In this document: piece by piece, positions 43,601 to 50,322 of the stretch | How positions within the stretch are numbered: the first letter of the stretch is position 1 | Layout: the number at the start of each line of letters is the position of its first letter | Source of the DNA: Sipunculus nudus | Lineage: Eukaryota; Annelida; Sipuncula; Golfingiida; Sipunculidae | Reading direction: 5' to 3' | Assembly (NCBI GenBank): GCA_026874595.1 | Contig: CM049310.1 | Coordinates: 40,553,558-40,617,557 of the forward strand | Length of the DNA stretch: 64,000 nucleotides | Translations under genes and position numbers: made by a program | The notes under the pieces: generated by a model | The model's database searches: none | Seen by the model: the letters and a program-made list of their open reading frames with translations, nothing else | What the model was told of the DNA's origin: nothing

Positions 43601-46600
43601 TCAATGTTAATGTCAAACTCTGATGTGGACAGAATTTTAGTCACCCTAGACATATTTGGAAAAAAAAGATAACTAATATCCTGTTTAGAGTTCACAAAGG
43701 ATGAATCAGTTTGGCTTTATGGAGTTGAGCTCTCATTGTTATACTTAACCATGACTAACTTTAATGCCAGTAATTTCCTGTGAGATCATTTGTGTTTTCT
43801 CTCGCATGAGAAATCAATTAACCTGTAGTTGGCAAGGAAACCACACACGTCTTATGTTTCATTCATGGATCACCATTTTTTATTACACACTCTGTTGCGA
43901 GATCAAATTTTATATACACAAATCATATGAACAGGTGATGTGTTCAGGAAGTGTTGGCTCAAAGTACACTGGAACTTATACATATAAAACCAAGCCACCT
44001 CTGTCCTCGATCACAAGACCATGCATATATTGCAAACACCCTCTCTATACCTTGAACATAGAGTGCCAAAAATAACTGACTGAAAAAAAATAAATTTTCT
44101 TGCCCGACTTTCTATAATTTCTTAGTCTTATCATTTGGAAATTTTTTGACAAGAAAGTTTTATAGATATTATGGCAATTATAGATTGTGGAGAGTTTGGT
44201 GGCAAGGGAATACATGTGTATATTGAGAAAGTTTAGAGTGGAATAATGCTTTTTTGGACTACACCTGATGCTTAAATGATAGTAGTATATGTGGTTATTT
44301 AAAAGCTTTAGGTATCTAACCTTTTAATTTAAATTATGATTATGATAACATTTGAGGACTTATGCTGTACTGGTATTTCTTCTTCTTGCAGATCAAACTG
44401 GAATAGCAGCTCGGGAAATGAAGTTCTCCTGAATCAGCTCGTCTGTCCGGCAGACAACTTAGGCACCAGTTGGGACAGACGGCTCCACTCAAATCCTGGT
44501 ACAGAGGGCCTTTTAATAAAAACAGATCCATCTAAACCCTCTCTGTAAATGAATGAATGTGTTACCTCCTAAAGGTGCTTGCAGTGATTCCACTTCTTTA
44601 AAGTTTCACAAAGGATCACTCACATGCTTTTATGTATTCTAAAGCAACAGTTGGCAGAATTAAGGTTGGGGGGGGGGGGGGGGGGGAAGGTTCCAACTTA
44701 ATAAGTATATATTTTAAATTTTGTTATTCTGAATGCAACCTATTTCAGTTTTACTCTACTCCATTCCATCTATTCTCTCAATCTGAAATTTGTATATTTC
44801 CATAAGTTAGTATCACTGATAGCAAGGGTTTTATATCCTATAAATGCACAGACACTGGACATTTTCACATGACAAAACACACATTTCATCCTGGCATGGC
44901 TGCACAAAATGTGCAATGAACCTATTCAATCTTTCTACTTCTAAGTTCTAGTGCAATGCTATCTTTATATTACTGTGTACATCTTTTAGTCAAACCACTA
45001 AACTAAGGTTATTGAAATAAAACTTGGAAAACATATCACTGAAATAATTTTTTGTTTGTAATAAACAGGGGCAGATACAGAATTTGAGAATGGGGGGGGG
45101 GGGTGCAGAAGGGGGAGGGTATGGATGGGGGGGGGGGGGTTCACCCTCATATACTAGCTGACATAGTGTAGAAATATTAAAAAGTTTCACCTTCAGACTG
45201 TTATGGTTTGAACTGGGGATAGTTTGATATACACATGATACAAAATTAAGCTATTTTTCAGTATAAAGTTCTTATTTTTTAATGTCCCAGAATTTTTCAA
45301 CGGAGAAATGGGGGCTAGCACCCCCCCCCCCTAAATTGGCTCTGATAATGCCAAAACAAATGCAGCCTTTGTGGTGATGAGAATAAGTGTGGCAGAATAC
45401 CTCTATATGTAATACAATGCTTGTGCTCTCCTTTTTGCCTTTGCCAGGAGGGTATGCACTTTTCCCTGCTCATGTGTGTGTGTTCGCAGTGTGAGTCCGG
45501 CACAAGATCCGGATTCAGGAAAGTCATCAAGGAATATTCATAAATATACAGTCACTTATCATTTGTTATGCAAGAAGGAACCTCAGGAATATGGGCCAAA
45601 TAAGTGAATGCAAACATGGTTTTGGGAGCATCTCACAATAGGGAACTCCCCTCCCCCCCCCCCCCCCCCACACACACACATGGCAGAAGCTTGCATTTCT
45701 TAGAATACAGATTACTTTCTATCTACATCATGTGTAAAACTTTATATGGCAACAGAAGCCTGCAAAGTGCTCAGTAAGGAACCATGGGGATTGTCATTAA
45801 AAACAATAATTAAAATGCACTAACAACAGGTATCTATCAGTTGAAACATTATTCACTTGTAGGGAGGCATGATTACAAGGGGGCCCATTTTACAGCTGTT
45901 TTGTATGTGTAATTATTTAAATCTTGTACCGTGCTTTATGTCACATTTAAACTTCATTTTATTATCTCATGCCACTTATGTTTCCTCTGTGCATGCTACA
46001 GATCACATCAAGTGTCATTGACCTCACACGACCTGTATACAGGCGAGTCAAAAACATGTACAGACAGCTAGGCAGAGGTCTATTTCTTCAAGTTTACAGA
46101 GACATGTTCCAGTCTGTTGAAATTTGGTATATTTATATTAATAGCCAAGATAACTGAAATTCCTCTCAGCTAAAGCCTTCAGCTATCAGCCTTTGTCTGA
46201 TGTCTTTTCATCCATTAACACAGCACAGATCTTAACCATAGGAGTTGGATATAAAGACATCTGACTTTACATCCAGGAAGGTCCTTAAACTAGGAATAAG
46301 GAGAACACTTGTTATAAACTAAAAGATCAATTCCAAAATGTAACCAAAAAGGCTTGTACATTTAACCTAGTGGGGAAAAATGCAATATTACTAATTATAG
46401 AAATGCAAGGTCTGGGAAACATTCTAATTATCACAGCATTTCAATCCAAAGAAATATGGTCAAGATACCCAGTCAAGTGCATGCAACTTTAAAAGCTGAT
46501 AGTCTGTTGTTGGTGCCATAAATTTATACGTTAAACTTTTCTCGCAAAATGGTCTGTCCGGTCTCCTTGCAATGATTAACACATATATATATATATTTAT

Positions 46601-49600
46601 TCCATCAGCCATCATTTTTTTAAGTATTTCCAAGGCAGACTGACTTTCAGAAACAGACATGATGACACAAATGGCACAGTTTAAGTTATAAAGGTGTAGT
46701 TGCAGGGAGATGAAGAAATTTATTTCAGCTTGGAATGTATTGTTTTTGGTTATATTTCTAATATTATGTTCATATGAATGCTTATGACTGGTCGAATGGA
46801 TAAAAAACCTGAGGTGCAGCTGCACATTGTTTAAGGCTTTGGTGGTTATCATCTCAGTTAATGTTATATATATATATAAATATATCATGAATACACTGTA
46901 TATGTACTATTACCTTATTTATCTGTGTAGAGACACGTTATTCTAGAAAAATCTTTGACTAAATTCTTTGTATACTTTTTGATTTAATCACATCTTAAAA
47001 ACTTCCAATATGATGTCAAGGTTTTTATTATTTGGAGATTTGTATTAAAATTTTGGTTTTACTGAGGCCTGACAAATGATGTAAACCAATAAACAGTACA
47101 TCAACTTGTCCACAAAACAAAAAAAACCCCTAAAATTGACTTTATAGTTTATGATGGGGTGTAAATTCAATATAAACACCTGGAATTAATCTATGGTTTT
47201 CAATAAACACTAGTTGTAAATAAAAATTAGGTTATATTATATGTTATTTCAGGAAATCAGTACAAATATTCTAGCTTCAATCAGTGTTAATGAGGGTACA
47301 TATAATACACAATAATACATGGTGCTGTCATAAAATCCCCTGACATCACCAAAGTATTTTTTATACACCAGAATTATTCATCAAATATTTTTGAAGATTT
47401 ATTTTATCACAAAAATCATATCTTATTGAGCAATGTTTTATTATGAATTATATAATTACTATATATATATATTAATTAGTAACAAACATAACAAAATTTT
47501 GATGATAAAAATTAGTAATCAGGTTATTATTAACAGCTGCAAAAAATTGTTTGTTGACTTGCATTCAAAATCAATAATTCATAATAAGAATCCATGCACA
47601 CTGATTATGAGGTAATTATTTTTCAACATCAATAATAAGAAAAAAACAATTTACTTTTAATAAGAGGTTCTCCAATAATGATAATTTTGCTATTTTTTTT
47701 TTTTTTTTTTTTACAAAAGGGAAGGGGACCTGGCATGTTCAGTATGACAGTAACCTTTGACCTTTTACCTTAGGTGTCACTTGTCCTTTATCAGGGACAT
47801 GTGTACTGATAAGATTAAACATCAACATATCAAGGAAGTGATGTTATTAGTACACCCCACCTTGTGCATCGCCACCGCTAGTAAAAACACCAATGGCTTC
47901 CCCCACATAGCTTCCTTTAGCTACGAATTTCCCTTCTTTTCCCATCATAACTACGTGCCTGCTGGCTTTCCTCTGCAGGGGTGGCCGTTTTTTGGGAGTG
48001 GCTGTGGCCAACTTGACCACGTCAAGGCCATTCTCATCAAACTTGTCAGCAGCTTCATGGCTTTCTACTTCCATGGTTAATCCTGATTTGATCCGAGAAG
48101 TTGGGGAGCCCAACTATTTCCTGGGTATGCTACAGACCACGCCACAAGGTGCTAATTGACCTCACACAACCTGTATTTTTACAGGTATTTGTATAGAGTG
48201 CTAGGCCCAAGTCTGTTTCTTCAAGTTAACAGGGACAGGTTCCAGTCTGTTACACAAGGGTGTACCCATTGAAATATTTGTATATAAATAGCCCATATAA
48301 CTGAAAGTGAAATCAACTCGGCTATAGCTACCACCATTTGTCTGATGTCCTTTCATCCATTAACTGGGAACAGATCTCAACCATTACACTTTACAGTTGG
48401 AAACAGAAACTTCTGACTTTACTTCCAGAAAGGTCCTTAACTAGGAATAAGGAGAACAAATAAGGTGAGGGCCTAGATACATTTTACAGAATAGGGGAGA
48501 AATACAATATTATTTATTATAGAAAAGCAATGTCTGGGAAAACAGTCTAATTTTTCACAATATTTCAATCCAAGGATATATGGTCAAGATATTCAGTCAA
48601 GTGCATGCAAATTAAAAAGTTGATCCTGATAGTCTGTTGTTGGTGCCATAATTTAAATAAAATAAAAATTTCTCCCAAAATAGGTTTGTCCGGTCTCTTT
48701 GCAAAGACTGACATGTATATTGATATACTCCACTGCTGACCAAGGCCATCATTTTTAAAGTATCTTCAAGGCATAATGACATTCAGAAACAGACATGTTG
48801 ACACAAATGTCATAGTTTCAGTTATGAATGTGTAGTGGTCAGGGAGATGTATAAATTTATTTCAGCTTCGCATGTTTTGTATTTTATAAAATATGTTCAT
48901 ATGAATGCATATATATATATAAATATATAAATGTGATATATATATGAGTTATGTGGATAAGACAACTGTAGTTCAATAGCACATTGTTTAATGCTTTTCA
49001 TTTGGTGTTTATCACTGCAGTTAATGTTATTTTTATTATATATATGTAAATACACTCTAAGGCATTATACTTTATTTATCTGTATAGAGACAATTTTTTC
49101 CTAAAAAGATCCTGAACAAAATGACCATGCATACACTTGATTTTTGTCACATCAAGAAACTTCCAATATTATGTCAAGGTTTTGGTTATTTGGAGATTTG
49201 CATAAAATGACAAGTTTTTGTGTACTGAGGCCTGACAAATGCTGTAAACTAATAAACAGTTAATAAACCTGTTAACAAATCAGAAAACAAAACCAAAAAA
49301 TTAATTTTATATTTTATGATGATGTGCATGTAAATTCAATATAAATACCTAATAATTAATCTATCGATAGACTTCAATAAACCCTGGTTGGTTGTAAATA
49401 AAAAAAAATATATTACATATCAGGAAATCTTGCAGTACAAATATCCTTATCTTCAATGAGTGGTTGTAATAATAAGAGCATATAATACCAGTAATATATG
49501 GTACCATCATAAAAATCCTTGACATCATGCACATATTTTTATATACAATTGAATTTTATATCAGATATATTTTTGTACTTTGGATCAATCACAAAAATTG

Positions 49601-50266: not shown

Positions 50267-50322
50267 GGTTAATCCGGATTTGATCCGAGAAGTCGGGGAG
50301 CCCAGCTGTTTCCTGGGTATGA
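48128..50322. repeat. Tandem duplication unit 2 (contains PFK exon 1a)
   Basis: Second copy, beginning 'gctacagaccac' and ending at 'cctgggtatg' (50314-50323), the same word that closes unit 1 at 48119-48128. Beyond it the sequence is unique, so the exon 1a promoter region was not duplicated. Confidence 0.85.
50056..50266 (-). CDS. PFK: PFK alternative first coding exon 1a (long N-terminus)
   Basis: The exon encodes 70 residues plus one base: a 60-residue hydrophilic leader followed by [10 protein letters not shown], the start of the ATP site. The ATG at 50266 sits in a strong context (ACCATGG). The donor is CAAG|GTAGGG, and the final G joins GT of exon 2 to make the Gly of GGDAQGMN. The leader holds the basophilic kinase motif RKSS and is Ser/Thr/Lys-rich. 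A CCAAT box on the minus strand near 50400 lies about 130 bases upstream, so this is probably a true first exon with its own promoter. It is the parent or sister of exon 1b in a tandem duplication. Confidence 0.92.

Follow-up and report, generated by a model that had tools for sequence, protein, structure and literature searches.

The window analysed here is a 64,000-nt stretch of the genome of Sipunculus nudus (GCA_026874595.1, contig CM049310.1, positions 40,553,558-40,617,557 of the forward strand), which carries on its minus strand the 5' part of a phosphofructokinase (PFK) gene of the animal type. A tblastn search of the window with human PFKM places the equivalents of PFKM residues ~1-395 in exons between ~50.3 kb and 7624. 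This search found no C-terminal half of PFK within the window, towards whose low end the gene runs. Ahead of the common exons lie two similar apparent first exons, 1a and 1b, one in each unit of a tandem duplication, and a candidate third, 1c.

Common exon 2 (25191..25264, minus strand) encodes 25 residues, a glycine among them being completed by exon 1, and its acceptor, TTCCAG/GTATGAATG with first base 25264, scores 11.1 bits and falls in the top 0.03% of minus-strand AGs. Common exons 3-12 span 7624..24673 (minus strand; ~PFKM residues 54-395) as placed by tblastn with boundaries by eye, exon 12 being followed as far as 7624. Splice sites, which for exons 3-12 were located by eye, were scored with matrices built from consensus frequencies; among the common exons the scored donors are those of exons 2-10. 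The joined exon 1+2 peptides resemble PFK: the PF00365 profile (cut-off 30.9 bits) matches exon 1a+2 with 42.8 bits and exon 1c+2 with 42.7 bits, and the best PDB match of the exon 1b+2 peptide is platelet-type PFK 4xyj (E 2.5e-21).

An old tandem duplication at the 5' end of PFK

Self-blastn aligns 45987-48129 with 48121-50321 at 72.1% identity over 2307 columns, 270 of them gap columns, so the two units do align along their length, as an earlier note on this DNA had claimed. Unit 1, upstream in transcription (48130..50321, minus strand), consists of a ~55 nt leader, exon 1a and a 1.9 kb intron; unit 2, downstream (45998..48129, minus strand), has the same order of leader, exon 1b and intron, and the edges of both are placed to within a few bases. 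Homology begins ~55 bases upstream of the ATG, at the C of CATACCC (50321 and 48129). Since it starts only there, exon 1b has no counterpart of the CCAAT at ~50400 or of anything else that 1a has further upstream, and on this point too the alignment bears out what had been claimed.

Tandem units that are similar in length are a familiar mark of misassembly, and an assembly artefact or a pair of uncollapsed haplotypes would produce such a picture; we consider this extremely improbable, since at 72% identity the units are too diverged for either. In the distal intron 445 of 1661 aligned sites differ (27%), with 37 gap events and a Kimura two-parameter (K2P) distance of 0.332, which is far beyond allelic variation, and the pattern of differences between the units requires long evolution. 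Judged from these alignments, the tandem duplication is real, and it is old.

Exons 1a and 1b look constrained

The coding part of exon 1a occupies 50056..50266 (minus strand; ATG at 50266, last base 50056; 70 codons plus 1 nt) and that of exon 1b 47861..48074 (minus strand; ATG at 48074, last base 47861; 71 codons plus 1 nt). Both end in CACAAG/GT in phase 1, fitting the exon 2 acceptor at 25264, and their donors score 5.8 bits (1a) and 6.5 bits (1b), against 0.5-6.0 bits for the nine donors of exons 2-10. Both modules are thus intact and share a phase, in line with the earlier description.

The two N-termini differ by 12 substitutions and a 1-residue indel (about 13 of 71 positions had been counted by eye), and across the coding exon 24 of 210 codon-aligned sites differ, with one in-frame indel. 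Ten codons differ purely silently, the number first estimated, and two more silent changes sit in residue-changing codons; the Nei-Gojobori method accordingly counts 12 silent and 12 replacement differences (S 46.2, N 163.8). These give a silent divergence (dS) of 0.319, a replacement divergence (dN) of 0.077 and a ratio (omega) of 0.24 (bootstrap 0.10-0.57; P(omega>=1) 0.0017), and the excess of silent over replacement change is significant by Fisher test (p 0.0011). The earlier suggestion that both exons are constrained rather than decayed therefore passes the dN/dS test it had asked for: the 12 silent changes fall on 46 sites, whereas the 12 replacements are spread over 164. Replacements are concentrated in the N-terminal tail, with 11 on 98.5 nonsynonymous sites, against one (K59E) on 65.3 at the core end. 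Both exons, then, look to be under purifying selection on the protein.

How easily could exon 1b have stayed open by chance? We simulated neutral change, assuming frameshifts from 70% of indels and equal rates in exon and intron. With half of the divergence placed on 1b, the exon stayed intact in 3.7% of 40,000 runs, and in 0.09% it did so while changing no more than 12 amino acids; with all of the divergence on 1b the corresponding figures were 0.24% and 0/40,000. The low omega combined with the 0.09% leads us to conclude that 1b is very probably in use. That it is a silent or decaying pseudo-exon, intact by chance, we regard as improbable: such an exon would be at home with the lack of a CpG-rich promoter upstream, with the many replacements in the tail and with the 3.7% of half-divergence runs that stay open, but it fits poorly with the near absence of simulated exons that are both intact and so little changed, and with the conservation of an intronic block 3' of the 1b donor as well. 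Of the three fates first proposed for 1b (a new promoter, a shared promoter or silence), the last has thus become unlikely, and the other two are weighed below.

Gene conversion was considered as a cause of the high exon identity and rejected. Silent sites (12/46) are as diverged as the distal intron (dS 0.319 against K2P 0.332; p 1.0), so nothing here points to a younger exon or to conversion. The flanking untranslated region and proximal intron are less diverged (17/186) than the silent sites (p 0.0046).

A conserved leader and intronic block accompany each exon

The first 150 nt of the intron form a conserved block in which 12 of 132 aligned sites differ; the distal intron, with 445 of 1661, is significantly more diverged (p 1.3e-6). 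Three stretches of the block, 20, 20 and 28 nt long, are identical in both units. In unit 1 it spans 49905..50055 (minus strand) and holds AGGTGAAAGGTCAAAGGTTA, with two overlapping DR1-like sites at 49930-49949, together with GATA-like strings; in unit 2 it spans 47728..47860 (minus strand), with AGGTAAAAGGTCAAAGGTTA at 47751-47770. The string AGGT(G/A)AAAGGTCAAAGGTTA makes two overlapping matches to the consensus of the DR1 nuclear-receptor element (HNF4/RXR type). When one mismatch is allowed, DR1-type sites number five in the whole window, against 0.09 expected, and none of 100 shuffles reaches five; four of the five lie in the two intron blocks. The sole site outside both blocks (39048-39060, plus strand) lies ~50 bp from the tandem-array element described below, and the DR1-type block was not seen at exon 1c.

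The block has 4 gap events in 154 columns and the distal intron has 37 in 1848 columns; these similar frequencies again argue against recent conversion. The distal intron also contains five perfect runs of 17-27 nt, so it is itself not wholly neutral, and the tests of constraint that use it as a standard are conservative. The common leader, too, is little changed. It shows 5 differences in 54 columns, one of them lying just beyond the homology, and is thereby less diverged than the distal intron (p 0.0026). By the joint divergence of the two modules, these comparisons show purifying selection on the noncoding block as well as on the protein, and on the same comparisons the duplicated unit is an exon plus a conserved intronic block.

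Two further observations concern the leader. That of 1a (50267-50350, minus strand) has an out-of-frame ATG at 50348, whose open reading frame (ORF) overlaps the main start, and it is open for 27 codons in the main frame. Of the in-leader differences between 1a and 1b, three of four are silent in the main frame, and the fourth is a TAG in 1b.

A candidate third first exon and three different tails

Exon 1c, a candidate third variable first exon (28944..29046, minus strand; 34 codons plus 1 nt, in the same phase), lies 3.7 kb ahead of exon 2. Its junction matches that of 1a at 11 of 12 residues, several codons differing silently, and tblastn recovers it with E 0.001 against 1a and 1.5e-4 against 1b. 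The GGDxQ/G pattern, searched as DNA on the window's minus strand, has three matches only, namely the ends of 1a, 1b and 1c. Searching the window by tblastn with 1a, 1b and 1c gave no other convincing copy, the rest of the list (E up to 20) being taken as chance. With the two parallel first exons described at the outset, the window holds three candidates.

The three N-termini differ mainly in the tail that precedes the first catalytic strand, and the long forms, 1a and 1b, differ almost only there, before the catalytic core. A Ser38 motif, R-K-[S/A]-S, is kept in 1a and 1b, and 1c has RRKRTLS with Ser10, so that each tail carries a serine (RKSS, RKAS and RKRTLS) in a putative basophilic kinase motif. 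Net tail charge is 0 in 1a and +2 in 1b. Because a basophilic serine is present in every tail, the choice of first exon probably tunes the phosphorylation, partners or localisation of PFK and not its catalysis. Reversible phosphorylation is described in a review as inhibiting several enzymes, PFK included, in the aestivating land snail Otala lactea (PMC10531719).

The presumed promoter of 1a and the start of 1b

The observed-to-expected CpG ratio (CpG o/e) is ~0.05-0.35 over most of the gene, climbs at 50.0 kb to ~0.8-1.3 and stays there until ~52 kb. The presumed promoter region of 1a (50267..51266, minus strand), with its CCAAT, falls in this stretch: over the 1 kb upstream, CpG o/e is 1.01 for 1a against 0.18 for 1b (p 0.003), and 0.28 for 1c. 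Leader and exon together contain 12 CpGs in 1a and 7 in 1b. In the oyster, methylation is reported to climb sharply past the transcription start and to be high along gene bodies, promoters being generally unmethylated (PMC4378273); read against that pattern, the step at 50.0 kb suggests the edge of the 1a promoter, and the depletion along the gene suggests gene-body methylation. CpG content alone is no proof of a promoter, since there are other CpG-rich stretches inside the gene (14-16, 17-22, 30-31 and 37-40 kb, some on repeats) and the flank at 52-64 kb is mixed (0.24-0.91). One of the repeats is a ~280-bp tandem array at 37595-38996, CpG-richer than the nearby gene body, with relatives at 15955-16168 and 21782-22023 of 92-93% identity; from its sequence and copies it looks like a young mobile element bearing tandem repeats.

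For exon 1b the evidence is of another kind. The last ATG upstream of its start is at 48269, and the following 192 nt (48075..48266, minus strand), a candidate 1b leader that crosses the breakpoint, are free of ATG. A gap of this length occurs in 0.43% of Markov strings and 0.33% of unit-intron windows. The paralogous tail at 45998-46133, which precedes no recognised exon, has four ATGs, against none in the part of the 1b stretch beyond the common leader. This suggests a trace of selection on a 1b leader, and suggests further that the transcript starts at ~48.1-48.3 kb, or enters through an acceptor at 48246 or the breakpoint, in preference to having a leader that begins at 48440.

The acceptor-like sites belong to an alternative in which a shared promoter upstream of 1a serves both exons, and an upstream non-coding exon is spliced to either 1a or 1b as mutually exclusive second exons. 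The acceptor-like sites upstream of 1b (48440, 4.6 bits; 48246 and 48120, 0.6 each; the breakpoint at 48129, 0.0) and of 1a (50485, a fair 3.9 bits) are all inside the range of the eleven acceptors of exons 2-12 (-1.7 to 11.1 bits), so that 1b may be a non-first exon reached from an upstream non-coding one. The 50485 site, however, lies outside the duplicated unit, which means that 1b must have gained an acceptor of its own; the best acceptor sites of 1a inside the common leader score -3.0 and -5.1 bits. A leader from the best 1b site, 48440, would carry 6 upstream ATGs, whereas one starting at 48246 or 48129 would have none. Splicing across the breakpoint, from AAG/GT in the 1a leader to the AG at the breakpoint, is possible, with an acceptor in the gene's range and a poor donor (AAG/GTCATA, -2.1 bits) that falls under all nine scored donors of exons 2-10. 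The CpG depletion at 1b suits a gene body over a promoter, but no upstream non-coding exon was identified in the analysis of the window. We therefore treat the shared promoter as a possibility to be taken seriously, yet clearly the less probable account of 1b.

A probable small variable-first-exon array with a proposed new 1b promoter

The explanation we favour, to which we give a probability of roughly 0.55, is that PFK in this species has a small variable-first-exon array made of the duplicated 1a and 1b modules plus 1c, and that 1b acquired a new promoter. The module copied by the old tandem duplication would have been one in which the end of the leader is followed by the coding first exon and then, within the intron, by an enhancer-like block. 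Each transcript would use one of 1a, 1b and 1c, spliced to common exon 2; 1a would be the housekeeping form, driven by the adjacent CpG-rich region upstream, and 1b would be driven by a promoter newly formed in the last part of unit 1, no more than a few hundred bases ahead of the 1b ATG, perhaps assisted by the duplicated nuclear-receptor-type block. The conserved DR1 block in each unit, the CpG boundary, the ATG-free stretch before 1b and candidate exon 1c are new in this analysis.

A number of points weigh against this explanation. The use of 1a, 1b and 1c is a prediction from sequence. The omega of 0.24 comes from a single 1a/1b pair without an outgroup and cannot apportion change between the copies, and intactness by itself is made less telling by the neutral half-divergence runs in which 1b also survives. 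At 3.4 bits the donor of 1c falls short of the 1a and 1b donors, if within the range of exons 2-10, and there is no duplicate of 1c on which to measure constraint. At 1b there is no CpG-rich promoter, and over 500 bp the CpG contrast between 1a and 1b is not significant (p 0.066). The ATG gap was chosen as a test after the sequence was seen; an equally long gap turns up at 0-1.9% of positions in five other stretches of intron, and when the test is restricted to the 139 nt that lie almost wholly outside the common leader, the gap is found in 2.7% of windows. Even at face value the gap argues for a leader, not for a promoter over an acceptor. A TATA box for 1b was sought and given no weight: TATA-like strings are common in the intron (34 TATAWA in 4 kb of AT-rich sequence), so none is credited to 1b.

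Comparison with known systems

Mammalian PFKM has testis and alternative-promoter forms with alternative 5' exons and extended N-termini, which are not known to come from tandem duplication of an exon. Variable first exons that do have such an origin form a known class (PMC1885805, PMC4835542). GCNT2 (IGnT) and UGT1 have tandem variable first exons and common 3' exons, with an own promoter reported for each variable exon, and such an array can be small, GCNT2 having just three variable exons in human, mouse and rat (PMC1885805). PFK resembles both in having a tandem-duplicated first exon in the same frame and common downstream exons, and resembles UGT1 in that a conserved motif is kept at each duplicated exon, here 1a and 1b. 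It differs in the place of the motif, which is intronic and 3' of the exon where that of UGT1 is upstream, in that own promoters are here putative, in that only two of the three exons are mutually similar, and in that the gene is glycolytic. The UGT1 exons, moreover, hold the substrate-recognition domain, whereas those of PFK hold a tail and the start of the catalytic core with its GGDAQ loop.

Clustered protocadherins and the 5' cassettes of chelicerate sDscam likewise join a tandem-duplicated 5' variable unit to constant exons by splicing, and separate promoters have been reported for them, though these are large arrays in cell-surface proteins and PFK is a metabolic enzyme with two or three units (PMC4835542). 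The alternative oxidase of Crassostrea virginica is, like PFK, a metabolic enzyme with isoforms from a duplicated exon; there the mechanism is recorded as alternative splicing of the duplicated exon (PMC5589949).

Features of variable-first-exon genes found at this locus are tandem similar exons 5' of a common set, a shared frame and phase, and a motif at 1a and 1b; for an own promoter there is the CpG o/e of 1a and, at 1b, the ATG-free stretch alone, which an acceptor would explain equally. By analogy, the layout appears to be of a known kind, that of GCNT2, UGT1 and the protocadherins, in an unusual gene for it. Among the literature matches listed, judged by title and opening of the abstract and covering few older subscription papers, there was no PFK with alternative or tandem first exons. 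The main text of a 2025 review of the PFK superfamily (PMC12203962) contains no words beginning 'splic', 'invertebrate', 'Drosophila' or 'mollus'.

Other features of the window

Further into the gene, the intron between PFK exons 11 and 12 (7682-9681, minus strand), read by eye, is apparently GC-AG (GGAAG/GCAAGT ... TTTCAG/GAGC). Upstream of exon 10, at ~10375-10801 (minus strand), ~86-bp tandem repeats are four decaying copies of the exon 10 acceptor region and the first ~40 nt of the exon, with the AG kept in two of the four; on this evidence they could act as decoy acceptors. On the strand opposite PFK, 59526-59801 (plus) encodes part of ribosomal protein eL19 (PF25476, E 2e-23), the sole Pfam family hit among four non-PFK ORFs tested. 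Scans of the window with Rfam (at gathering scores) and for tRNAs gave no hits. Tblastn matches to PFKM that were dropped are those at 63.6 kb and at 5018-4914 (which has a stop), together with second matches of the C-terminal half to the N-terminal exons.

Implications

A more far-reaching proposal, which as a whole we think unlikely, is that the duplicated module, comprising leader, a tail with a PKA-type serine and a nuclear-receptor-responsive intronic enhancer, gave two separately regulated and differently phosphorylated N-termini, to which 1c adds an unrelated third; the control of glycolysis would then have been diversified by choice of first exon, and not by gene duplication in the vertebrate style (PFKM, PFKL, PFKP). 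The basophilic serines of the three tails would, in a mollusc, offer a testable link to the control of PFK by phosphorylation that is reported for a land snail (PMC10531719). If transcripts confirm the use of these exons, a core flux-controlling enzyme would have been diversified within one gene by the copying of its first exon and a local element of regulatory type. Because silent sites and distal intron are equally diverged, and replacement sites, leader and block are not, the locus would also be a clean natural experiment on the way in which a first exon acquires a new promoter after being duplicated without the old one.

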